Positions 4,352 to 34,045 of a stretch of 34,045 bases of DNA are shown piece after piece; positions within the stretch are counted from its first letter, which is position 1; the number at the start of each line of letters is the position of its first letter. The notes below the pieces were generated by a model, which was not told the origin of the DNA, did not search any database, and saw nothing but the letters and a program-made list of their open reading frames with translations. Origin of the DNA: a virus; the IMG/VR virus record IMGVR_UViG_3300032050_000460, positions 1 to 34,045 of that record; one strand, written 5' to 3'. A program made the position numbers and the translations under genes.

Positions 4352-7000
4352 ATGGCGAATAGAAAAATAAACGAACTAAGTCCGAGGACTCCGAGTCTGA
4401 CAGACTTAATGATTGTAGGAGACCCAAGTACCGGCTATTCTTTCAAGGCTACTCTTGCTGCTTTGAATACGTTAATCGATAGTTCTACTTCGATTGGCGA
4501 TTTGAATGGTGTGGTAATTACAAGTCCTACCAATGGTCAGGCTTTAGTTTACGATGGAACGAATTGGGTGAATCAATCTATCTCTGTACCTGTTACTTCT
4601 GTTTTTGGCAGAACAGGTGCGGTAGTAGCTACTGAAGGAGATTATACTTTGACTCAGTTAGGAGATGTCACTTTAACGAGTCCTTCGAGTAATCAGGTTT
4701 TGCAATACAACGGAACGGCTTGGGTTAATGCTACTTTAACTGATAACGGAATAACTTCTCTTAACGGATTAACGGCTCTTAGTCAGACCTTCGCCACAGG
4801 ATCAAGCGGAACAGATTTCTCTATTACTTCTACTACTTCTACGCATACTTTCAATCTACCTACTGCTTCTGCGGTTAATCGTGGTGCTTTAAGTTCTGCG
4901 GATTGGTCTACGTTTAATTCTAAGGTAGGAGGCTCTGGCACCTCTGGTCAGGTAGCCTATTGGACAGGAACAAGCAGTCAATCGGGAAGCAATAATTTGT
5001 TTTGGGATAATACCAATGGTAGGTTGGGAATTGGGACTAATGCACCGAGTTATAGATTACATAACGTAGGTTCTTCGGGTTTTGACAATGGGAATAGCAA
5101 TGATGCAATTACTATTTTGAATAGCGGATTTATTCAAATGGCATCAACAAGGCTAAGAGGTTTTGCTTCAGCATTTCAATTTCAAGATAATTCATTTAAC
5201 ACCAAAGTGGTGTTGTCAATGAGTGGAAGTATTTCCTATTTCAATACAGGAGGTAACTACCATTTCGGAGGAACCACCGATGGCGGTCAGCGTCTTCAAG
5301 TCACAGGAGATGTTTTATTCAAGGGAAGTGGCAACACAAGTGGAACAACTGCTTTGACTGTTCAGAATAGTGATGGAACAAGTGTGTTGAGAGTAAGAAA
5401 TGATAATAGGGTTTTTGTTACTCAGTTGGCATTTGGAACTGATTATCCTGAGATATATTCAACGGCAACTGGTGCTTATGATGTTAGCGGTGGTTCTTTA
5501 TCATTTAACGCATCACAAACAAACTATGGTGTAGCATCATATAATTTTTATTTTAGACACGTTTATAGCGGCAAAGTAAATACATCAGGTACAAGCGGGG
5601 GAATTTTACAAACATTAGGATTTTCGCCAACAAGCGGAACAGGGATATTTAATCAAGTTGCATTAGCCGGAGCCATCAACCAAACAGGCGGTGCTAATGG
5701 TATCACACGAGGCTTGTATGTCAATCCTACTTTAACTGCTGCTGCTGATTGGAGGTCAATAGAATGGAGTAACAATAGCGGATGGGGATTGTATGGTACG
5801 GGAACTGCTAACAACTATCTTGCGGGTAGTTTAGGAATTGGGACGATAAGTTTGAACAATTCAAATATAAGAATTGCTAAAACAATAACAGGTGCAACAA
5901 GTGTCAACTCAATCATAAGTGAATCGCCAATTACATCAACCGTTACAAACACTGCAAGTATTTTTGCTAGCACATCAACTACTCAAAACGCAACATTTAC
6001 ACTTACAAATCTCAGACATTTTATTGCAGCACCTGATGCAAAAGGTGCATCTTCAACAATAACAAATGAGTATGGTTTTGTTGCTGCATCTTCCCTTACT
6101 AATGGAACCAACAACTACGGATTTTATGGAGACATCCCAAGTGCCACAGGTCGTTGGAATCTCTATATGAACGGAACTGCAGCCAACTATATGAATGGCA
6201 ATCTACTTTTGGGAAGCACGGTAGATGGAGGGCAGAAACTTCAGGTAACGGGAAATGCTATTGTAACGGGAAGTGGGAATACATCAGCGACAACTGCTTT
6301 TTCCGTAAGGAATAGCACACCTTCGACAATGATGTCTATTTCAAACGATGCAGCAAATGCTACTTTGAATATCACAGGAAGCAATTACGGAATGCTTCAA
6401 GTAAACCAAACTACGGCAAATCGAAACGCATACTTTGCGAGTGTTTCAACAGGTGCTGAGTTCAACGTAGGTAGTGCGATAACAAACTATACTTTTTTGA
6501 ATACAGGTGGAAATGGTTTAATGAAAATTAATACTGCACCTTTCCCAACTACTGGTGGTGATGTTGTAGAGATTCCAAGAATAGGGACTTCATTTGCACC
6601 TACATCAGGTTCGGCAGGAGCGACAATGCTTTTAGTTAGACCAACAATTAATCAAACAGGAGGTGCGAATGGCATAACGATTGGAATAAATGTCAATCCT
6701 ATTTTAACTGCTGCTGCTGATTGGCGAAGTATTCAATGGTCAAACAATACAGGATTTGGACTATACGGTTCGGGAACGGCTACCAACTATCTTGGTGGAA
6801 CATTAGGCATTGGCACGACTTCCCCTAACGCATCCGCAATCCTTCAGGCTGATTCTACTACGAAGGGAATGTTACCTCCTCGGATGACCAATGCTCAGAT
6901 GGTTGCTATCGGAACTCCTGCTTCTGGTCTTATGGTTTACGATACTACTAACAACAAACTAAACGTATACGATGGCACTAATTGGGTCGCAGTACACTAA
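4352..7000 (+). CDS. Tail fibre / receptor-binding protein with duplicated modules
   Basis: 882 aa. I chose ATG 4352 (MANRKINELS) because it starts just after the upstream stop at 4344-4346; an ATG at 4316 would overlap that gene by 31 nt. The N-terminus (SPRTPSLTDLMIVGDPSTG) resembles virion-attachment ends of Bacteroidota phage fibres. The rest is a long Gly/Ser/Thr/Asn-rich beta repeat protein with GIGT turns. Two 57-residue blocks (5675-5845 and 6647-6817) and two 30-residue blocks are internal duplications. The C-terminus (KGMLPPRMTNAQMVAI, then YDGTNW) is a common fibre ending. No chaperone or peptidase domain is visible. The central part is more AT-rich than the flanks, suggesting recombination in the host-range region. 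Confidence 0.8.
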   Translation: MANRKINELSPRTPSLTDLMIVGDPSTGYSFKATLAALNTLIDSSTSIGDLNGVVITSPTNGQALVYDGTNWVNQSISVPVTSVFGRTGAVVATEGDYTLTQLGDVTLTSPSSNQVLQYNGTAWVNATLTDNGITSLNGLTALSQTFATGSSGTDFSITSTTSTHTFNLPTASAVNRGALSSADWSTFNSKVGGSGTSGQVAYWTGTSSQSGSNNLFWDNTNGRLGIGTNAPSYRLHNVGSSGFDNGNSNDAITILNSGFIQMASTRLRGFASAFQFQDNSFNTKVVLSMSGSISYFNTGGNYHFGGTTDGGQRLQVTGDVLFKGSGNTSGTTALTVQNSDGTSVLRVRNDNRVFVTQLAFGTDYPEIYSTATGAYDVSGGSLSFNASQTNYGVASYNFYFRHVYSGKVNTSGTSGGILQTLGFSPTSGTGIFNQVALAGAINQTGGANGITRGLYVNPTLTAAADWRSIEWSNNSGWGLYGTGTANNYLAGSLGIGTISLNNSNIRIAKTITGATSVNSIISESPITSTVTNTASIFASTSTTQNATFTLTNLRHFIAAPDAKGASSTITNEYGFVAASSLTNGTNNYGFYGDIPSATGRWNLYMNGTAANYMNGNLLLGSTVDGGQKLQVTGNAIVTGSGNTSATTAFSVRNSTPSTMMSISNDAANATLNITGSNYGMLQVNQTTANRNAYFASVSTGAEFNVGSAITNYTFLNTGGNGLMKINTAPFPTTGGDVVEIPRIGTSFAPTSGSAGATMLLVRPTINQTGGANGITIGINVNPILTAAADWRSIQWSNNTGFGLYGSGTATNYLGGTLGIGTTSPNASAILQADSTTKGMLPPRMTNAQMVAIGTPASGLMVYDTTNNKLNVYDGTNWVAVH
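5675..5845 (+). repeat. Tail-fibre module A, copy 1 (171 bp)
   Basis: Encodes INQTGGANGITRGLYVNP…LGIGT. It matches 6647-6817 at protein level over 57 residues with no length change, indicating an in-frame internal duplication. Confidence 0.85.
6647..6817 (+). repeat. Tail-fibre module A, copy 2 (171 bp)
   Basis: Encodes INQTGGANGITIGINVNP…LGIGT, the second copy of the module at 5675-5845. The DNA has drifted more than the protein, so the duplication is not recent. A shorter pair of related 30-codon blocks lies at 5282-5371 and 6227-6316 (GGQ[RK]LQVTG…GSGNTS). Confidence 0.85.
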
Positions 7001-7319: not shown

Positions 7320-7730
7320 ATGAAACTACACGAAATCATCAATCTTTACTACGAACTGAACGGAGTCACAAAGCAAACAAAAGATGGAGACGAGGTAATC
7401 AGCCTCGGTATTCTGAAGCAAAAGATGAGCCTTAAAAATAAGGTCTATCTGCAACGATTGAATAAGGTCGTATCGGAAGAGGTAAAACTCTACGAAGAGG
7501 CTAAGAAGGAACTATTCGAAAAGTACACCGAAAAGGATGGCGAGAATGTAATCGTACCTGCGGACAAAATCGAGCCGTTCAATCAAGAGCATTTAGACTT
7601 ATTAACCGCTGAGAAGGATATCAACGTATCTACTCTGTGGGGTTCTGACTTGACTCTGGAATCTTTGGAATCAATCGAGACTGACGAATTCTATCCGCAA
7701 TTATTTGAACTCATAGACTCTAAAAAATGA
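7320..7730 (+). CDS. Hypothetical protein upstream of the lysis genes
   Basis: A 136-aa helical, charged protein (LKQKMSLKNKVYLQRLNKVVSEEVKLYEEAKKELFEKY) with an acidic C-terminus and no membrane segment. The helix pair followed by KDGENVIVPADKIEPFNQEHLDLL recalls DUF1617-type phage proteins encoded between tail fibre and holin in other phages; this is a weak resemblance only. It overlaps the next gene by 4 nt (ATGA), tying it to the lysis cassette. Confidence 0.6.
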   Translation: MKLHEIINLYYELNGVTKQTKDGDEVISLGILKQKMSLKNKVYLQRLNKVVSEEVKLYEEAKKELFEKYTEKDGENVIVPADKIEPFNQEHLDLLTAEKDINVSTLWGSDLTLESLESIETDEFYPQLFELIDSKK

Positions 7731-11730: not shown

Positions 11731-12305
11731 AGTTGATAGATTTTATCGTGACCTTGCTCTCTATGGTAATTAAAATAGACCTCAATGCTTTTATGCTTTC
11801 CTCTTCTAATGTCTATTCCGACTGATTCATATTGACCATCTTTGTACATAGTCTGAGCATCAGAACTCATATACTTTATGAAATCCGAATGATGTATTTT
11901 GTTATCCATTACCAATCTATCGTAAACGTGTGGATGGAAATACTCTGGTTTTACTCCTTTGAGGTAAGAGTTATAGCATTTGTTTACTTCTTGATTCCAT
12001 TCTCTGATTCCTGTCGGGTATCTGACATCGGTAATATGAATAGAAGGATCAAGTAATCCCGAATCGAGGTAGTGCTTTTGTGAGCCTTGATTACGCATAA
12101 AGTCTTCTACCCATCCGAGAATAGTTTGAACATCCATCGCATAGACTTTACCATAGTCTCCGCTAATTCCTTTCTCAAAGATGTCTGTCAGTTGCTCGAT
12201 AGTCAGGTTAGGAAATTTCTTTTTAAGATTCTTGGTTACGAGTTCTTCGGTTACTTCAGAGACTTGCTTAAACTGTCTCAAGAATTCAAATGCAGGGTTT
12301 CTCAT
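11727..12305 (-). CDS. Hypothetical replication-region protein
   Basis: 192 aa, no P-loop or nuclease motif. The N-terminus (FEFLRQFKQVSEVTEELVTKNLKKKFPNLTIEQLTDIFEKGISGDYG) is helical, as in small primosome-associated or helicase-loader-like phage proteins. The C-terminal half is mixed (HPHVYDRLVMDNKIHHSDF, DIRRGKHKSIEVYF). It sits directly after the primosome-like gene with a 4-nt overlap, suggesting a related role in replication, which is inferred from position only. Confidence 0.55.
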   Translation of the reverse strand: MRNPAFEFLRQFKQVSEVTEELVTKNLKKKFPNLTIEQLTDIFEKGISGDYGKVYAMDVQTILGWVEDFMRNQGSQKHYLDSGLLDPSIHITDVRYPTGIREWNQEVNKCYNSYLKGVKPEYFHPHVYDRLVMDNKIHHSDFIKYMSSDAQTMYKDGQYESVGIDIRRGKHKSIEVYFNYHREQGHDKIYQL

Positions 12306-12928
12306 AGTTCGCTTAGTTTTCTGTTGGCTATTTGTTTTAATGATTTCTTTATCTCGTTGGTATCGATTTGTTTCTTCTCAGGTCGGCTCCTGTTGATCCA
12401 ACCGGCTACTGCACTCCGCCAATTCTTCATCTTATTCTTTCCTACCATCCAACCATTTGAATCGTAGTAGGTAAAGAATCTTTCCGATTGTATCTTGGCA
12501 TTGTACTCATCTGTTCTTTTCAGCATCTCATCGAAGACATCTTCTATCTTAGGTATGGCGAAGTTGCTCTTCTGCACTACTTGCTTAAGGTCAAACTTCA
12601 GTTCGTACTTCTTGAGTATCTCGATTATCTTATTATGAATAGGACTATTCGGATTAAGACTCGTTCCGTATTGAAAGTCTATAAAGCCTGTGCAATAGAT
12701 TTTGCCATCTGAAAGTAACTCGAACTGCTTACCTCCATCGATTGCTAATATTTCCTCTTGAGTTACTTTATCTCCGATGTAAACAGAAGCGAGAATGTAA
12801 TTCGGTGACCATATACCTGCGAGATCGCACTTATCTCTAACGTACTTGACAAAGCATTTATGCTTAGGAGATAGTTGCATAAACCATTCTTTATCCCATA
12901 GTTCGGTATCTGTAAATCGCTTAGGCAT
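12302..12928 (-). CDS. Replisome organiser / primosome-like protein
   Basis: 208 aa from ATG 12928 (MPKRFTDTELWDKEWF); starting at 12970 would add 14 residues and overlap the upstream gene by 50 nt. The start FTDTELWDKEWFMQLSPKHKCFVKYVRDKCD matches the winged-helix beginning of many phage replication organisers. The C-terminal WMVGKNKMKNWRSAVAGWINR resembles the primosomal DnaT/phage O-like tail that contacts helicase or ssDNA. It likely loads helicase at the phage origin. The neighbouring DnaA-like, SSB-like and NinG genes support a replication module. Confidence 0.7.
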   Translation of the reverse strand: MPKRFTDTELWDKEWFMQLSPKHKCFVKYVRDKCDLAGIWSPNYILASVYIGDKVTQEEILAIDGGKQFELLSDGKIYCTGFIDFQYGTSLNPNSPIHNKIIEILKKYELKFDLKQVVQKSNFAIPKIEDVFDEMLKRTDEYNAKIQSERFFTYYDSNGWMVGKNKMKNWRSAVAGWINRSRPEKKQIDTNEIKKSLKQIANRKLSEL

Positions 12929-13304
12929 AGATATAGTTTTGGCGGAAGCGGTGGAATTTAACTGGCTCATATTCTGCTCCTATTGTTTCTAATAATTTGT
13001 AATGCTGCATAAAGAACGGATCATTATTCTTTATGTAGAAGTAGATGCGTTGATTGTTATAGCTAATCGTAGAGTGGTCATTGTAACCAATTACTAAAGC
13101 TATCTCTGTAAGTGTTGCAGGGAAGTTATTCGATAGATAATATCCGAGAGCCATACGGAGAGTAGATATGTTTACTCCGTTGTAAACCTTTCTTTTCTTT
13201 GCGTTCTTGATTTTGTTAGTACGAAATAAGTCCTGTCGAGTGATTCCGTAGAGTGAGCAGTATCTGTCTGCAATCTCTACCATTTTGTCGTGTGTTGTTA
13301 GCAT
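12921..13304 (-). CDS. Stand-alone DnaA domain IV-like DNA-binding protein
   Basis: 127 aa. Residues 49-85 (LRMALGYYLSNNFPATLTEIALVIGYNDHSTISYNNQ) match the helix-turn-helix and signature of DnaA domain IV, the part that reads DnaA boxes; DHSTISY corresponds to DH(T/S)T(V/I). The N-terminal ~45 residues are basic and there is no ATPase domain. It may bind the phage origin and recruit replication proteins or act as a regulator. It starts after an AAACTAAACAATG leader, preceded by TATTTTTG (13312-13319 on the minus strand), a match to the Bacteroidota -7 box, so a secondary promoter is possible. Confidence 0.8.
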   Translation of the reverse strand: MLTTHDKMVEIADRYCSLYGITRQDLFRTNKIKNAKKRKVYNGVNISTLRMALGYYLSNNFPATLTEIALVIGYNDHSTISYNNQRIYFYIKNNDPFFMQHYKLLETIGAEYEPVKFHRFRQNYIYA

Positions 13305-13927: not shown

Positions 13928-15148
13928 TTAAATATTAATGGTTAATGATTCCTCTATTTTTCTTTTCTTTTTTATTTCCTTGAACTTTCCATATGCATCT
14001 GAAAATGGTTGTGTTTGTCCTAACCCTTTACACCAATAATCATTTCTTAAAATTACTTTGCACATTCTCCTCCAAGACGGTACCCAGCATTTTGATTCTA
14101 AATCTTCTGGAGCCTCGTCAGGTATTTTTAAGTATCCCCTATCTTGCCAACCTTTTATAAATTTAATAAATCTTTCTCTATAATGTTCACTTGTTTTTTT
14201 AGGCATAGTTGATAGAAGTAAATTGCAGAAACTTTGCCAAGTATGCCCTTCTGGTTTTGTAATTTTATTATATCCTGTTATGTTGCCATTTTCTTGTATA
14301 TATAAGGCTCCGCTATTAACTCCGTTTACTCTTGCTACTAATTTATACCACGTTTCAGGTTCTAATATATGATAAAGCCATAAGCCTTTTCGCTGATCAT
14401 CTCCATATGGTTGACACAATCTTTGCTGACTAATCTTAACTCCTGCCATCATCATTTTATCATACACCTTATTGTGTGGCAGGTAATTATATTTACCGTG
14501 AAATATCCAAATATCCTCAGTTTTCCAATCATATATTGGGTATATATTATAAAGTTTTGATGATACTTTTGTTGTCCATTTCCAATTATTATACATTAAG
14601 CCATCTTTCCTGCTAACTATCGCCCTATATCGATGTAGGCTTTCATCTGCACGTATTCCAATAAATGCAGCGGTTGTAACATCTTTTGCATACCATTCTC
14701 CAAATATCACCATAAATTCCTCAAACTCCATCTTTGGGACATAGAAATCATATTTAGATAAATCTGCTGCCAATGTTGGTTTTTCCCTAACCCATACGTC
14801 TTTTTTTGATTCATCCCAACATACCCATCTCGGCTCATAATTGCTAACTGCATTTCTAAGTAATAATTCAGCACATACCCAATGAAGGTCTATATAATCT
14901 TTATAGATTTCAATCATATGCTCGATATGAATTATAGTGTCATTATATTGAGCTTCCAAATCAATAATTAAAAAACCAACTTTGCGATTTCTTTTTTTAG
15001 CTTCTTGCAATACAAGGTGAGACATCACCGATGAATCCTTTCCGCCAGAGAATGATATATATATTTTTTCGAAATTATCAAATACATCTGAAATCCTTTC
15101 CCGGCTCGCTTGCAAAACTGTTTTGCTATTATATACTTTTGTAGCCAT
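13928..15148 (-). CDS. IbrA-like PAPS-reductase-family (PP-loop) protein
   Basis: 406 aa. Residues 34-40 (SGGKDSS) form the PP-loop of the adenine-nucleotide alpha-hydrolase fold used by PAPS reductases and DndC. The overall length and the segments FIGIRADESLHRYRAI and PIYDWKTEDIW match the IbrA/DUF3440 group. The biochemical role is not established; relatives occur in mobile elements and resemble DndC of DNA phosphorothioation. It is 1 nt from the IbrB-like partner. The pair is visibly more AT-rich in codon choice than the surrounding replication genes, suggesting separate acquisition. Confidence 0.8.
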   Translation of the reverse strand: MATKVYNSKTVLQASRERISDVFDNFEKIYISFSGGKDSSVMSHLVLQEAKKRNRKVGFLIIDLEAQYNDTIIHIEHMIEIYKDYIDLHWVCAELLLRNAVSNYEPRWVCWDESKKDVWVREKPTLAADLSKYDFYVPKMEFEEFMVIFGEWYAKDVTTAAFIGIRADESLHRYRAIVSRKDGLMYNNWKWTTKVSSKLYNIYPIYDWKTEDIWIFHGKYNYLPHNKVYDKMMMAGVKISQQRLCQPYGDDQRKGLWLYHILEPETWYKLVARVNGVNSGALYIQENGNITGYNKITKPEGHTWQSFCNLLLSTMPKKTSEHYRERFIKFIKGWQDRGYLKIPDEAPEDLESKCWVPSWRRMCKVILRNDYWCKGLGQTQPFSDAYGKFKEIKKKRKIEESLTINI

Positions 15149-15149
15149 A

Positions 15150-16277
15150 TCAATATATATTTACTTGTCTTCCAATAGATAAAGCCTCTTCCATAGTCAC
15201 ATTATTCCTACGATATTTATCCATCCATTTATTTAAATATTTAAGTGCCACATCATTAGCTTCATCTTGCTGACTTTGAGTGAGCCGATTGAATCCAGCA
15301 CAATACTTAGATGGTATTCCAGTGGCATAGCACATAGCAGCTTGACCAAGCCAAGCTATTCTATTCATAGCCTTATTTGTCAAATAATGTTCACAGCTAT
15401 TTATCCATTCAGATAGCACACCATCTAAAGCATCTGCAAATTTTTGGCTATCAGATAGAAAATCTGCATAGGCTTGTTCGCATTGTTCTTGAGTTTTCCC
15501 CTCAAACTTTGAAGAATAAAATCCAGCTTTATGGCACTCCCATTTATCAAAGGTGTGAAATATTCTATCTGGATCGCTTGTGTTTACAGTCCTATAATGC
15601 TCTATTTCTTCCTCAGTCAAATCATCCGTAAGTGGATCAAATAATGTTACCGAATCACTTGATTCCCAAGATTTACTAAAATCATCATCCTTAAAAATAT
15701 CTTGTAACCCAGTTATCTGACATAGCCTTAAAATTTCCTCTTGATCCATTCCAAGCTCTCTCGCTATACGTTCGTTCTTCCAATTCCTATTTTTTAATTC
15801 TAAAACTATTTCAGACATAGCATCTACCTGGTGTTTGCCTCTCGCCCTATTATGTCTAATTGTTGATGCAATTCTGTCATTTTTATCTGATTGATCCTTT
15901 CTGATAATTACAGTAGGTAAAAATCCAAATACTCTATTTCTAACTATTTTAGATTCTTTACATACTCTCGTTCTATGAAAACCATCTACTACTTCTATTT
16001 TATCGTTTAATGGAAATGTAACTACAGGTTGAGTATATCCATCATTCATTATAGAAATCTCAAGTAATTCCATTTCTGGTGGAGCAACCTTATTTGGATT
16101 GTAATCATTAGCAGTTACTAAATCTGATTTAACCCATTTTACAAAATCTATAGGCTCATTTTTGAAAGGTGAATATTGATGTATGTGAAATCTAATTTCA
16201 TTTATTAATTCAATTTTATCTTCTTCATTGCATCCTAAAAATAAGTTTGATATATTATCTTTTATTTCCTGTAACAT
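15150..16277 (-). CDS. IbrB-like ParB-domain protein
   Basis: 375 aa. An N-terminal ParB/sulfiredoxin-like domain spans about residues 50-130: ANDYNPNKVAPPEM, VVDGFHRTRV. It is followed by a helix-turn-helix-like stretch (NWKNERIARELGMDQEEILRL) and a long helical C-terminal half (TNKAMNRIAWLGQAAMCYATGIP). ParB-like folds can bind DNA and hydrolyse NTPs, and related DndB-like proteins pair with PP-loop enzymes. IbrB/IbrA gene pairs are known from E. coli and phages. It is AT-rich, like IbrA, and flanked downstream by the pair partner and upstream by a hairpin. Confidence 0.78.
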   Translation of the reverse strand: MLQEIKDNISNLFLGCNEEDKIELINEIRFHIHQYSPFKNEPIDFVKWVKSDLVTANDYNPNKVAPPEMELLEISIMNDGYTQPVVTFPLNDKIEVVDGFHRTRVCKESKIVRNRVFGFLPTVIIRKDQSDKNDRIASTIRHNRARGKHQVDAMSEIVLELKNRNWKNERIARELGMDQEEILRLCQITGLQDIFKDDDFSKSWESSDSVTLFDPLTDDLTEEEIEHYRTVNTSDPDRIFHTFDKWECHKAGFYSSKFEGKTQEQCEQAYADFLSDSQKFADALDGVLSEWINSCEHYLTNKAMNRIAWLGQAAMCYATGIPSKYCAGFNRLTQSQQDEANDVALKYLNKWMDKYRRNNVTMEEALSIGRQVNIY

Positions 16278-18451: not shown

Positions 18452-18491
18452 GATAAATCAAATATACAACCTCTTATCAACACAAACCAAA
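18452..18491 (-). promoter_or_regulatory. Leftward early promoter, Bacteroidota type
   Basis: On the minus strand TATATTTG (18459-18466) exactly matches the Bacteroidota -7 box TAnnTTTG. TTTG at 18488-18491 lies 21 nt upstream, with another at 18483-18486 at 16 nt. Transcription would start near 18452, giving a ~36-nt leader with a GCC-GAAA-GGC hairpin (18436-18445) before ATG 18416. TTATCAACA, one mismatch from a DnaA box, lies in the spacer at 18474-18482. Confidence 0.7.
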
Positions 18492-18537: not shown

Positions 18538-18562
18538 ATTGAAAATCAATTACTTATATTTT
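18538..18562 (+). promoter_or_regulatory. Possible rightward promoter core before the sigma-like gene
   Basis: TATATTTT (18555-18562) is one base from TAnnTTTG and lies just before the operator. No well-spaced -33 TTTG is visible. A small palindrome, ATTGA-AAA-TCAAT (18538-18550), lies upstream. A protein bound to the operator would cover the transcription start. Confidence 0.4.
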
Positions 18563-18565
18563 ACC

Positions 18566-18588
18566 TGTAGGGTATCTAATACCCTATA
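18566..18588. promoter_or_regulatory. Palindromic operator O1 (before the sigma-like gene)
   Basis: Half-sites around spacer CTA; the perfect core is TAGGGTATCTAATACCCTA at 18568-18586. The whole 23 bp is the exact reverse complement of 23460-23482. It lies between a -7-like box and the sigma-like gene. Confidence 0.75.
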
Positions 18589-18589
18589 A

Positions 18590-18625
18590 GTAATGGAGTA
18601 ATTAATGGTAATGGAGTAATTAATG
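18590..18625 (+). repeat. Tandem 18-bp repeat creating in-frame mini-ORFs
   Basis: GTAATGGAGTAATTAATG occurs twice without gap (18590-18607, 18608-18625). In the frame of the downstream gene it encodes Met-Glu-stop, Met-Val-Met-Glu-stop and, with the following bases, Met-Glu-Glu-stop, ending in TAGATG where the real start (18635) follows directly. Confidence 0.9.
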
Positions 18626-18634
18626 GAAGAATAG

Positions 18635-19186
18635 ATGGAAGAAGATAGGATATGGAGATGGAAGAATATATATAGCACGACCTATATTCGGTATGTGAAT
18701 CGTGAGCAAATCATCCACGACCTGTATATATCGAAGGACATAAACGAAGCCATCGGTAAGATGCAGCCCTATGAATTACAAGAAGACCTCAAGCAAGAGG
18801 TCTTTCTCGTTTTATGCGAAATGAACGAAGAGCGACTCTTTCAGATGTACAACGATGGTTATCTGAAGTACTTCATAGTCCGAACGATTCTGAATATGGC
18901 TAAGAGTGACAGAAGCAATTTCGCACGAACATTCCGCAGGGTATACGAGCCGATAGAGGATATAGGATCAACAGAGCCATACGATGAGAGCCTAACGACT
19001 AAGCTATACGCATCGATGGAGATACTGCATTGGTACGAAAAAGAGATATTCCGGCTATTTAGTGAGACAGGGAATCTTTTACAAGTAAGCAGGGATACGA
19101 ACATACCTTACCGCTCTCTGTTAAAAACGATTAAGAAGGTCAGATTATTACTCAAGTATAAAATACGAAACTATGCACACGATTAG
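18635..19186 (+). CDS. Sigma-70-family-like transcription factor
   Basis: 183 aa. Residues ~45-105 look like sigma region 2 (ELQEDLKQEVFLVLCEMNEERLFQM, YLKYFIVRTILNMAKSDRSNF), and ~125-172 like region 4 with a helix-turn-helix (HWYEKEIFRLFSETGNLLQVSRDTNIPYRSLLKTIKKVRL). The size fits an ECF-type sigma. It would redirect host RNA polymerase, perhaps to the TCTATTTA boxes before late genes (inference). It is the first gene of the rightward block, behind operator O1 and the mini-ORF repeat, so its expression seems tightly controlled. Its end overlaps the next gene by 14 nt. Confidence 0.7.
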   Translation: MEEDRIWRWKNIYSTTYIRYVNREQIIHDLYISKDINEAIGKMQPYELQEDLKQEVFLVLCEMNEERLFQMYNDGYLKYFIVRTILNMAKSDRSNFARTFRRVYEPIEDIGSTEPYDESLTTKLYASMEILHWYEKEIFRLFSETGNLLQVSRDTNIPYRSLLKTIKKVRLLLKYKIRNYAHD

Positions 19187-22904: not shown

Positions 22905-23279
22905 ATGTCTAAGTTAGATAATTTGCAAAAGGGTAATGGATTCGATGCATATCCAGAAAGAATAAACAGGGAAGGAAGACCTCGTAAGTATGTATCTCAA
23001 CTGAAAGAGCAAGGATATAAGTTAAGCGAGGTAAACGATGCTATACAGGCTTTGATGTCTATGGATGCTGAAGAACTGAAAGCGGTATTAGATAATCCGA
23101 AGGCTACGATATTAGAACTGACGATTGCAGCTGCAATGATTAAGAGCCTCAAGAATGGATCATTATATTCAATGGAAACATTGCTAACGCGTGTGTACGG
23201 ACGTCCTAAAGAAACGCAACAGGTGCAGTCTGATAGCAGAATAGAGGTAGTGTTCGTTAATGGAAAGACGATACTCTGA
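22905..23279 (+). CDS. Putative terminase small subunit
   Basis: 124 aa. The N-terminal half has NREGRPRKYVSQLKEQGYKLSEVNDAIQALM, a helix-turn-helix-like region. The C-terminal part has ATILELTIAAAMIKSLKNGSLYSMETLLTRVYGRPKE, the helix and 'R.YG.P.E' tail common to small terminases. It should recognise the packaging site and present DNA to the large subunit. The preceding leader contains a direct repeat CAACCGAT (twice in 22887-22902). A 361-nt noncoding region separates it from the large subunit, unusual for terminase pairs. Confidence 0.7.
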   Translation: MSKLDNLQKGNGFDAYPERINREGRPRKYVSQLKEQGYKLSEVNDAIQALMSMDAEELKAVLDNPKATILELTIAAAMIKSLKNGSLYSMETLLTRVYGRPKETQQVQSDSRIEVVFVNGKTIL

Positions 23280-23428
23280 TTCAGAATCGCATTAGACGCA
23301 TTCTTAGGTGGGTAGGTTCGATTATCTTTTTCTTTTGGTATCTTGATATGGTTAAAAAAATAGAGCCTTAAATCGCCTTAAAATGAGTCAAAAAGGTTTT
23401 CTCTCTCATACTCTCTCTTTCCAAAATA

Positions 23429-23445
23429 ATACTCTTAAAGAGTAT
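23429..23445. promoter_or_regulatory. 17-bp perfect palindrome
   Basis: ATACTCTT-A-AAGAGTAT, eight-base arms. Its halves (AGAGTAT) recur as the left half of operator O3 at 23568-23577, but in the opposite relative orientation, so it may bind the same or a related protein. Confidence 0.65.
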
Positions 23446-23459
23446 ATAGTCTTCTTCCA

Positions 23460-23482
23460 TATAGGGTATTAGATACCCTACA
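23460..23482. promoter_or_regulatory. Palindromic operator O2
   Basis: Core TAGGGTATTAGATACCCTA (23462-23480); exact reverse complement of O1 over 23 bp. Contains the 10-mer ATACCCTACA at 23473. Confidence 0.75.
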
Positions 23483-23567
23483 CAAGGGTAATTAAATATT
23501 TAATATTCAATGAGTTACGAAAATATTTTGGAATGATGGTTAAAATGACTGCAAAAATGATGTCGTT

Positions 23568-23613
23568 TGTAGAGTATGCCATACCCTACACGATAGGTAG
23601 CAGATACCCTACA
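23568..23613. promoter_or_regulatory. Tandem operator-like sites O3 and O4 before the large terminase
   Basis: O3 (23568-23590): TGTAGAGTAT-GCC-ATACCCTACA, one mismatch from a perfect palindrome. O4 (23591-23613) abuts it, with a degenerate left half and a perfect right half ATACCCTACA (23604-23613). They end 27 nt before the terminase ATG. Confidence 0.65.
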
Positions 23614-23640
23614 AAATAGTATCACATAAATCGTTGATAA

Positions 23641-24792
23641 ATGAGAATTGAATTACCCAATCCGCACATAAACCAACAGAAGATATTAGACTCTGTTAGT
23701 CGATTTAGAGTTGTTATGGCAGGTCGAAGATTTGGTAAGTCCGAGTTGAGCCAAATAGAAATAATAATCAACTCACTACAAGGGAAGAAAGTAGCCTACA
23801 TAACTCCTACCTATCAACTCGCCAGGGTATTCTTTGAGCAGCTTACAAAGGTCGTTCCGTTTGAGAATAACAAATCAGAACTATCTATTAAATTCCCTAA
23901 CGATGGATCAGTAGAGTTCTTTACAGGGGAGAGATTAGATAACTTGCGTGGTAGAAAGTTTCACCTCGTTGTAATCGATGAGGCTTCCTTTATTCCTAAC
24001 CTCGAGGATGGATGGCTTAACTCTATACGACCTACTCTAACAGACTATAAAGGTCGAGCCTTATTCATATCTACTCCGAAGGGTAAGAATTTCTTCTACT
24101 CGCTCTATCTTAAATCTGGCGAACCGGATTGGGAGTCCTTCAAGTTCAGCACCTACGATAATCCTTATATCGATAAGACAGAGATAGACGATGCACGTAT
24201 GCAACTTCCCGAAGTAGTCTTCGAGCAGGAGTATATGGCTAACCCATCAGAGAATGCAGCGAATCCTTTCGGTTCTCAATACATAAAACAATGTACCTAC
24301 CCACTATCGACAGAGCCTCCGATAGTCTTCGGTATTGACTTAGCCAAGTCAGTCGACTTTACTTGTATTATCGGACTCGATAAGAATGGATCAGTAAGTT
24401 ACTTCGAGAGGTTTCAAAAGGATTGGCGAAACACTAAGCAGATAATAGCTAATCTACCGAGAATGCCTATCCTAATCGATTCGACAGGAGTAGGAGACCC
24501 AATCTTTGAAGATTTGTATCGGGAGGGTGTGAACGTAACCGGCTTTAAGTTTACCTCGAACTCTAAGCAGCAACTAATGGAAGGTCTGTCTTCTGCTATC
24601 CAACAAAGAAAGATAACATTTCCCGAAGGTGCGATAGTAAACGAACTTGAGGTATTCGAGTATCAGTATACTGCAACAGGGGTAAAGTATTCTGCACCTC
24701 AAGGGTTTCACGATGACTGTGTTATGAGCCTGGCTCTCGCTTGGAGTCACTACACGAAGAACGGTCAAGCAGGTAGGTATAGTTTCGCTTAA
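23641..24792 (+). CDS. terL: Terminase large subunit
   Basis: 383 aa, a compact large terminase. ATPase: Walker A AGRRFGKS (27-34), Walker B LVVIDEA (109-115, D113/E114), coupling-like STPKG near 144-148. Nuclease: D233 in FGIDLAKS, D280 in LIDSTGVG and D358/D359 in GFHDDCVMSLALAW, the three acidic positions of the RNase H-like fold. It drives DNA into the procapsid and cuts it. It is 10 nt upstream of the tail chaperone gene and directly downstream of the noncoding operator region. Confidence 0.95.
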   Translation: MRIELPNPHINQQKILDSVSRFRVVMAGRRFGKSELSQIEIIINSLQGKKVAYITPTYQLARVFFEQLTKVVPFENNKSELSIKFPNDGSVEFFTGERLDNLRGRKFHLVVIDEASFIPNLEDGWLNSIRPTLTDYKGRALFISTPKGKNFFYSLYLKSGEPDWESFKFSTYDNPYIDKTEIDDARMQLPEVVFEQEYMANPSENAANPFGSQYIKQCTYPLSTEPPIVFGIDLAKSVDFTCIIGLDKNGSVSYFERFQKDWRNTKQIIANLPRMPILIDSTGVGDPIFEDLYREGVNVTGFKFTSNSKQQLMEGLSSAIQQRKITFPEGAIVNELEVFEYQYTATGVKYSAPQGFHDDCVMSLALAWSHYTKNGQAGRYSFA

Positions 24793-33072: not shown

Positions 33073-34014
33073 ATGGCATTTGACGTTTCAGCACTTGCAA
33101 ACTATACCAAAGAGAATGAAGCCCTCTTGGTAACGAGTTCCGTACTCGGTGCAAAAACCGCTTCTCTGATTAAGGCTCAAGGTAACGTAATGGTTGGAGT
33201 TAAATCTTCCGAGAAGATCAACATTATGGATACCGATGCTATCTTCCAAGCAGGTGGTACTTGCGGATTCAACGCGTCTGGTTCTACGACCTTCACTCAA
33301 CGTACCGTTACAATCGGTAAAGTAAAGGTTAATGAGTCTCTGTGTCCTAAAGCTCTCGAAGCTAAGTATCTGCAAAAGGCTCTTCCTGAAGGAAGCCGTT
33401 ACGATACTATCGCTTTCGCTGCTGAGTATACCGACAAGAAGGCTGCTCGTATCGCTGCTCAACTTGAGACTGCTTTGTGGCAAGGTGATACTACTTCAGT
33501 TAACGTAAACCTGAATAAGTTTGATGGTTTGGTTAAGCTGATTGGTACTTCTGCGATTGAAGCTAATAACTCAACTTACTACGGAACTCCTGCTACTTCT
33601 ATCACTTCTTCTAACGTGGTAGCTATCGTAGATGCTCTGTATCGTGCAATCCCTGCTACTGTTGTAGCTGCTGACGATATGACCATCTTTATGAGTCAGG
33701 ATGTTTTCCGTCTGTACACTATCGCTCTGAAGAATTCAAACCTGTTCGCTTATACCTTCGATGGTAAGGCTGATAGCGAGTTCTTCCTGCCCGGTACTTC
33801 TGTGAAGGTTGTAGCTACTCCTGGCTTGAACAATATCACTAAACTGTATGCTTCTCGCTTGAGCAATATGTTCCTTGGAACTGACTTGCTGAATGAGGAA
33901 GAGCGTTTCGAGTTGTTTTATGCTAAAGAGGCTGACGAAGTTCGCTTCGTATCTGAATTCAAGATGGGTGTGAATGTCGCATTCTTGGATGAGGTTGCTT
34001 CTTTCATCATCTAA
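33073..34014 (+). CDS. Major capsid protein
   Basis: 313 aa. The order (protease, scaffold-like, this) and sequence pattern fit an HK97-fold major capsid: N-terminal arm (AFDVSALANYTKENEALL), a long helix-containing P-domain (YDTIAFAAEYTDKKAARIAAQLETALWQGD), A-domain strands (DDMTIFMSQDVFRLYTIAL) and C-terminal strands (EVRFVSEFKMGVNVAFLDEVASFI). Codons are the most biased in the window, as expected for the most abundant virion protein. The start is in AATAACAATG. A strong terminator follows. Its 3' end is repeated at 1-96. Confidence 0.88.
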   Translation: MAFDVSALANYTKENEALLVTSSVLGAKTASLIKAQGNVMVGVKSSEKINIMDTDAIFQAGGTCGFNASGSTTFTQRTVTIGKVKVNESLCPKALEAKYLQKALPEGSRYDTIAFAAEYTDKKAARIAAQLETALWQGDTTSVNVNLNKFDGLVKLIGTSAIEANNSTYYGTPATSITSSNVVAIVDALYRAIPATVVAADDMTIFMSQDVFRLYTIALKNSNLFAYTFDGKADSEFFLPGTSVKVVATPGLNNITKLYASRLSNMFLGTDLLNEEERFELFYAKEADEVRFVSEFKMGVNVAFLDEVASFII

Positions 34015-34045
34015 TCATAAGGGGGAGGTAACTCTCCCCCATTTT
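33919..34045. repeat. 127-bp direct terminal overlap, right copy
   Basis: Identical to bases 1-127; closing the circle here restores the capsid gene and its terminator followed by the gene at 152. Confidence 0.9.
34021..34045 (+). terminator. Capsid-gene terminator, copy truncated by window end
   Basis: Same hairpin as 103-130, with the T-run cut at the window end. Confidence 0.88.

Follow-up and report, generated by a model that had tools for sequence, protein, structure and literature searches.

The palindromic site O1 of this viral genome is read here as the origin of phage replication, moved out of the initiator gene, with the sites O2 to O4 belonging to a second, inverted origin-like cassette; from comparison of sequences we put the probability of this reading at about 0.7. 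It draws on the anatomy of the sites, their conservation, their co-occurrence with the gene for a putative replisome organizer and the domain architecture of that protein. Iterons for replication, mentioned in the initial annotation as an alternative, proved to be the best reading of the sites. The literature searched reports no origin for these phages.

The window analysed was the whole virus record IMGVR_UViG_3300032050_000460 of 34,045 nt. The presence of a 127-bp direct terminal repeat (1-127 and 33919-34045) indicates that the record is complete or circular, and O1-O4 are therefore the full set of copies. The genes form an early leftward block (18461 to 10684) and a second, rightward one, which opens with a sigma-like gene and goes on to terS, terL and the structural genes; the divergent gap separating the two contains O1. 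GC skew at 18.5 kb showed no sharp signal of an origin other than the effect of gene orientation, the promoter-like matches found in the promoter and terminator scan were not above shuffles, and the Rfam scan of the window and of the inserts described below matched no family. The nearest cellular records were a Chitinophagaceae MAG and Pollutibacter soli, so the hosts are presumably Bacteroidota of the Chitinophagaceae type, known by kinship only. The loci in Pollutibacter and in the MAG gave the host family, and the half-site cluster was not found in them. In the cultured-phage collection the sigma-like protein was unmatched and TerL found matches of only approximately 34 % identity or less, so no helpful cultured relative was available.

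The palindromic sites and their conserved module

O1 (18566-18588, TGTAGGGTATCTAATACCCTATA) consists of two TAGGGTAT half-sites separated by a 3-bp spacer. O2 (23460-23482, TATAGGGTATTAGATACCCTACA), 4.9 kb away, is its exact reverse complement over 23 bp, where the exact identity ends; the similarity reaches approximately 45 bp further, giving an inverted match of 79 % over 72 bp between 23460-23527 and 18588-18522, that is, O1 with its upstream flank. O3 (23568-23590) deviates from the symmetric consensus at one position and is abutted by O4 (23591-23613), whose left half is degenerate and right half good. The end-to-end arrangement of O3 and O4 and the exact relation of O1 to O2 were thus confirmed as first described, together with the three copies of the 10-mer ATACCCTACA in 141 bp (23473-23613); one more copy is present in O1 and a lone half-site ATACCCTACA lies at 1337 within a coding region. 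A scan of the whole window for TGTAGGGTAT-N3-ATACCCTACA, allowing up to three mismatches, returned exactly O1, O2 and O3, with no further copies at random positions, and the same scan of 100 dinucleotide shuffles gave 0.00 matches. The convergent pairing of half-sites across N3 fits the dimeric DNA-binding protein proposed initially.

A genome has about one palindrome, which lies at the module; the window has three and G006 two, and none were found in the sister phages searched. A scan of viral_contigs found the palindrome only in this phage group, except for the 61.6-kb viral contig L203, outside the group, which carries an exact TAGGGTAT-N3-ATACCCTATA at 7667-7689.

The module consists, in this order, of an IHF-like site, TAGG[G/A]TAT half-sites paired at 3 bp and a C-less purine-rich tract. 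The first gene past it is the sigma-like gene (18695..19186, +), of weak similarity to sigma-70 (E 0.014-0.025), which likely starts at GTG 18695 and not at ATG 18635. Relatives of its product were encoded at 60 loci, 58 of them with readable upstream DNA, and the half-site cluster was found in the 300 bp before the gene at 44 of these 58 loci as well as in the window. The layouts vary from one palindrome (window, L084) through two (L086, L087) to as many as five half-sites (L127, L128), with the 3-bp spacer of the pairs held across them. The 14 loci without a called cluster include L097 and L117, where single palindromes were missed by the rule, L101 with just one half-site left, and L119, where the contig ends. 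At L102 and L142 the half-sites lie approximately 0.5 kb off, behind a gene which by eye is of the GIY-YIG homing endonuclease type (L102 5535-6005, L142 5501-6004) and which separates the iterons from the sigma-like gene. Eight loci (L134, L136-L141 and L143) have the sigma-like gene without sites, the module being replaced by a gene judged by eye to be VRR-NUC-like.

The IHF-like site of the window, AATCAATTACTTA (WATCAANNNNTTR), is located at 18544..18556 (+). Of 45 sequences, 35 had a perfect WATCAANNNNTTR ahead of the half-sites, against a background of 0.012 per 100 bp, and its core is constant while the four N spacer bases vary. Further upstream, 94 bp before the first half-site, a DnaA-box-like TTATCAACA at 18474..18482 (+) differs in one position from TTATNCACA. 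Of 36 distinct leaders, 27 have a match to TTATNCACA with at most one mismatch within the 150 bp ahead of the half-sites, and 8 have an exact one, compared with 7.7 % and 1.0 % of random stretches; in the window the site overlaps the spacer of a putative leftward promoter, and part of its conservation may stem from the promoter. This element, TTTG-N21-TATATTTG at 18459..18491 (-), is by consensus a putative promoter of the Bacteroidota type; it would drive the early/replication operon and points away from the O1 module.

The C-less purine-rich tract (18585..18675, +; 91 nt), the proposed unwinding element, is the longest C-less run in the genome of the window, the maximum in 200 mononucleotide shuffles being 74. 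Among 33 distinct tracts the autocorrelation of A at lags 3, 6 and 9 was 0.454, 0.408 and 0.407, with -0.017 ± 0.023 for lag 3 in shuffles. This 3-nt periodicity does not come from coding, since most tracts have stops in two or three frames. The tract of the window is among the less periodic ones (best-frame A 0.50). Leaving the half-sites, the purine strand reads 5'->3'.

The proposed initiator and other candidate binding proteins

The strongest candidate for the protein binding the sites appears to be a putative replisome organizer of 222 aa encoded at 12302..12970 (-), absent from the list of candidates drawn up in the initial annotation. It comprises an N-terminal domain (residues about 15-125), placed by homology and fold matches only, and a DnaD-like C-terminal domain (about 128-208). 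Full-length homologues of 54-99 % identity were found in 25 records including the window, and all 25 hold half-sites before the sigma-like gene (in G032 only a lone one); two further records gave N-terminal or partial matches. The module thus tracks this protein and not the sigma-like or the AT-hook gene, with the provision that records within one clade are not independent and co-occurrence is confounded by shared descent.

TerL relatives without the module match it mainly at residues 130-216, and the initiators of these sister phages carry other N-terminal domains (HTH_36, Lin1244_N, DUF1376). The initiator of G016 matches the PHROG families 'replication initiation O-like' and 'DnaD-like helicase loader', and its C-terminal families phrog_15768 and phrog_28809 are also found in the initiator of the window, which itself matched a DnaD-like loader with E 8.7e-5 in the C-terminal part. 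Matches of its fold among viral structures include replisome organizers, DnaD-domain proteins and replication initiators; the PDB fold search returned nothing significant, and the pTM of the model was 0.49.

In the sister phages the linker DNA of the initiator gene contains repeats followed by a C-less run of 51-76 nt (G016, G025, G027, G028 and G029), and in G044, from the group with the VRR-NUC-like gene, the initiator likewise combines repeats of its own with a C-less tract of 55 nt. Runs of such length were matched by few synonymous shuffles of G016 (1/300), G025 (2/300), G027 (0/300) and G029 (5/300) and by more of G028 (26/300), and the initiator gene of G019 had no unusual C-less run by the same comparison. 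The repeats in the sister linkers were mostly non-significant by the 9-mer test (best G027, 6/100). The G028 protein, 40 % identical to that of the window, has a homologous N-terminal domain and a 28-aa linker with a C-less tract; the initiators of the window clade are without this linker, and no such tract was present within the initiator gene of the window.

From these features we infer how the origin could fire. Dimers of the organizer, supplied by the leftward early operon, would bind the TAGGGTAT half-sites through the N-terminal domain, and a host protein of the HU/IHF type would bend the DNA at 18544-18556. The adjacent C-less purine-rich tract would melt and the DnaD-like C-terminal domain would then recruit the helicase. 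Since the origin would lie in the divergent intergenic region and not in the initiator gene, the bound initiator may in addition influence how the sigma-like gene is transcribed.

Three other binders had been proposed on first inspection. The AT-hook protein does not track the sites, as it is present in 31 of 31 records tested, with the module or without it, and it was ruled out. The AP2-like protein does track them; its absence from G006, which has the module, speaks against it. The DnaA domain IV-like HTH protein (12921..13304, -; PF08299 at E 6.6e-5, short of the curated threshold), whose gene adjoins that of the initiator, follows the sites too, and it also occurs weakly in three siteless records; it is a possible second origin-binding protein. 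The latter two track the module almost as well as the organizer, and both are kept as candidate accessory or even main binders.

The insert between terS and terL and the alternative explanations

O2-O4 lie in a 361-bp insert without a gene of its own (23280..23640, -) between the terS-like gene (22905..23279, +) and terL, encoding the large terminase (23641..24792, +). An IHF-like TATTAAATATTTA with one mismatch (23493..23505, -) falls inside the 72-bp match and holds the same relative place as at O1. The double palindrome that L127/L028 carry where the window has O1 is in turn matched by O3-O4 in inverted orientation (81 % over 47 bp). Similar gene-free inserts, always in the same orientation, were present in L014, L110 (=L133) and L113, and by alignment the tail of the cassette (approximately 110 bp, 23288..23396, -) is conserved in all three, where it carries the motif AAAAGATAATC[G/A]AA...AATGCGT. 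In their dialect the half-sites of each insert resemble O1 of the same genome: TAGGGTAT in the window and L014, TAGGTAT/TAGAGTAT in L110 and L113. The L014 insert has a full 83-nt tract and that of L113 is purine-rich. The tract of the window insert is C-poor and interrupted by a few C, so the cassette may be partly decayed. The inserts in these genomes and in the window thus look like inverted origin-like copies, and for O2-O4 we infer a role as, probably, a late origin or else a fork barrier starting concatemer synthesis for packaging.

The initial annotation had proposed a single regulon in which one protein controls both the sigma-like gene and the packaging genes. The underlying observation of a small set of genuine, conserved and non-random sites stood; the single regulon did not. 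Both ends of the terS/terL junction could be placed in 61 of the 80 TerL relatives retrieved, most of which have the two genes overlapping or abutting (gap of up to 20 nt in 39 of the 61), and L004, with a TerL 94 % identical, is without the insert. The expected conservation of the sites beside the conserved terS and terL was therefore not borne out, and the packaging half of the regulon is refuted by the absence of the insert from most relatives. On the sigma-like side, the gene occurs without sites at eight loci, and homing endonuclease genes intervene in L102 and L142.

A narrower version, in which a dimeric regulator of the DnaA-IV-like or AP2-like kind acts at O1 on the sigma-like gene and the divergent early promoter while the terS-terL copy is a leftward promoter/operator yielding an antisense transcript, is considered unlikely. 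The location of O1 between the divergent promoter and the first rightward gene, which was the basis of the earlier regulon idea, suits it well, and the module does occupy the place expected for a promoter and operator, which counts against an origin; genes for both regulators also co-occur with the sites. The cassette copies, however, retain half-sites and the purine-rich tract with no gene behind them, the sigma-like gene is found without sites and the module beside a homing endonuclease gene, and the AP2-like protein is missing from G006 despite the two modules there. The sites were not conserved upstream of the genes supposed to be regulated, as operators of a regulon should be. An operator also leaves unexplained the 3-nt periodic tract, the IHF-like and DnaA-box-like sites and the equivalents inside the initiator genes of sister phages. 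The position of O2-O4 beside terS and terL could alternatively mark a packaging signal (pac) or binding sites of the terminase, but this is very unlikely in view of the conserved copy O1 4.9 kb away and of the many relatives that lack the insert and have conserved terS and terL.

A hairpin in the transcripts, acting as a terminator, attenuator or processing site, is still less probable. O1-O3 can be read as 9-10-bp hairpins with a 3-nt loop, but what is conserved is the half-site sequence and the fixed 3-bp spacer rather than the pairing, across layouts that vary from single to double to five half-sites. On this ground the hairpin was rejected. In addition, O4 lacks self-complementarity, the copy is inverted, no Rfam family was matched and no relative was seen in which compensatory changes in the arms destroy TAGGGTAT and keep the pairing. 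Palindromic sites and a ParB-like gene (15150-16277) in one genome could also suggest a centromere-like parS partition site. This can be practically discounted: among the 31 records the ParB-like gene was found only in the window, 0 of the 30 others having it, most of them with sites. Its absence from these relatives indicates that it is probably a recent import, and its PAPS-reductase-like neighbour (the two genes occupying 13928-16277, -) suggests a different pair, presumably similar to IbrA/IbrB.

Related replication origins and the terminase junction

Origins of iteron plasmids of the RK2, pSC101 and P1 type combine iterons for the initiator, an IHF/HU site, a DnaA box and an AT-rich unwinding element. 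The module of the window has iterons, an IHF-like site, a DnaA-box-like site and the tract. It differs in having palindromic pairs where those plasmids have direct repeats, and its putative initiator is a phage organizer carrying a DnaD-like domain, not a Rep protein.

The lambda origin has O-protein iterons and an AT-rich tract inside gene O (PMC7466680). At O1 repeated dyad-symmetric sites for a putative dimeric initiator are likewise followed by an AT-rich, strand-asymmetric tract of putative unwinding function, and in the sister phages the initiator gene apparently contains such a layout. In the window clade, in contrast, the sites are found between the divergent gene blocks, at a distance of 5.6 kb from the initiator gene, the half-site layouts are variable and the tract is C-less with a 3-nt period.

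In Bacillus phage SPP1 gp38 binds both oriL and oriR, the latter among late genes, and gp38 at oriR was proposed to stall the fork and so trigger concatemer synthesis (PMC6316719, PMC3485210). Two distant arrays of the same sites, one of them among late genes, are present in the window, with the AT-rich tract at O1 and the interrupted one at the second array, and two arrays are also present in L014, L110 and L113; by this analogy the terS-terL cassette may be described as resembling the late origin oriR. There are differences: oriL of SPP1 is inside gene 38 whereas neither array of the window is in the initiator gene, SPP1 has a separate helicase loader (gp39), and the second array of the window is inverted, placed exactly between terS and terL and absent from most relatives.

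DnaA-trios run 3'->5' away from the DnaA boxes (PMC10201434). The tract shares with DnaA-trios and the DnaD recognition element (DRE) a 3-nt periodic purine strand with a TnnT complement, situated by the initiator sites (PMC10201434), and the initiator of the window has a DnaD-like domain. Its purine strand has the opposite polarity relative to the protein sites, leading away from them 5'->3', which rules out membership of the DnaA-trio system.

A bolder proposal can be derived from these comparisons: a fixed origin would be accompanied by an optional inverted cassette between the terminase genes that couples late replication to packaging, and the 3-nt purine/TnnT element, as a phage counterpart of DnaA-trio/DRE with opposite polarity, would be read by the DnaD-like domain of the initiator. 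We regard it as doubtful. If the reading of O1 and O2-O4 given at the outset is right, the rule of TAGG[G/A]TAT pairs, an IHF-like site and a C-less triplet tract would find origins in uncultured phages of the Chitinophagaceae type, the origin would have departed from the initiator gene while the DNA-binding domain of the initiator remained, and the two-origin idea from SPP1 could be tested in close relatives with and without the cassette, such as the window and L004.

The junction of terS and terL is seemingly a hotspot of non-coding insertions. In L113 a tRNA-like gene with an apparent CCA anticodon (5250-5335) directly follows terS. A candidate structured RNA of approximately 430 nt, not present in the window, was seen between terS and terL in eight relatives (L010:807-1225, L013:2070-2495, L017:9569-9997, L023:265-691, L048:3900-4340, L102:10103-10512, L113:5335-5755 and L118:10746-11170). 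It had no Rfam match among those loci of its set that were scanned. Changes on both sides were found in 31 of its 62 predicted pairs, and 93.9 % of cells pair, compared to 80.3 % in shuffles and 40-52 % when slid.
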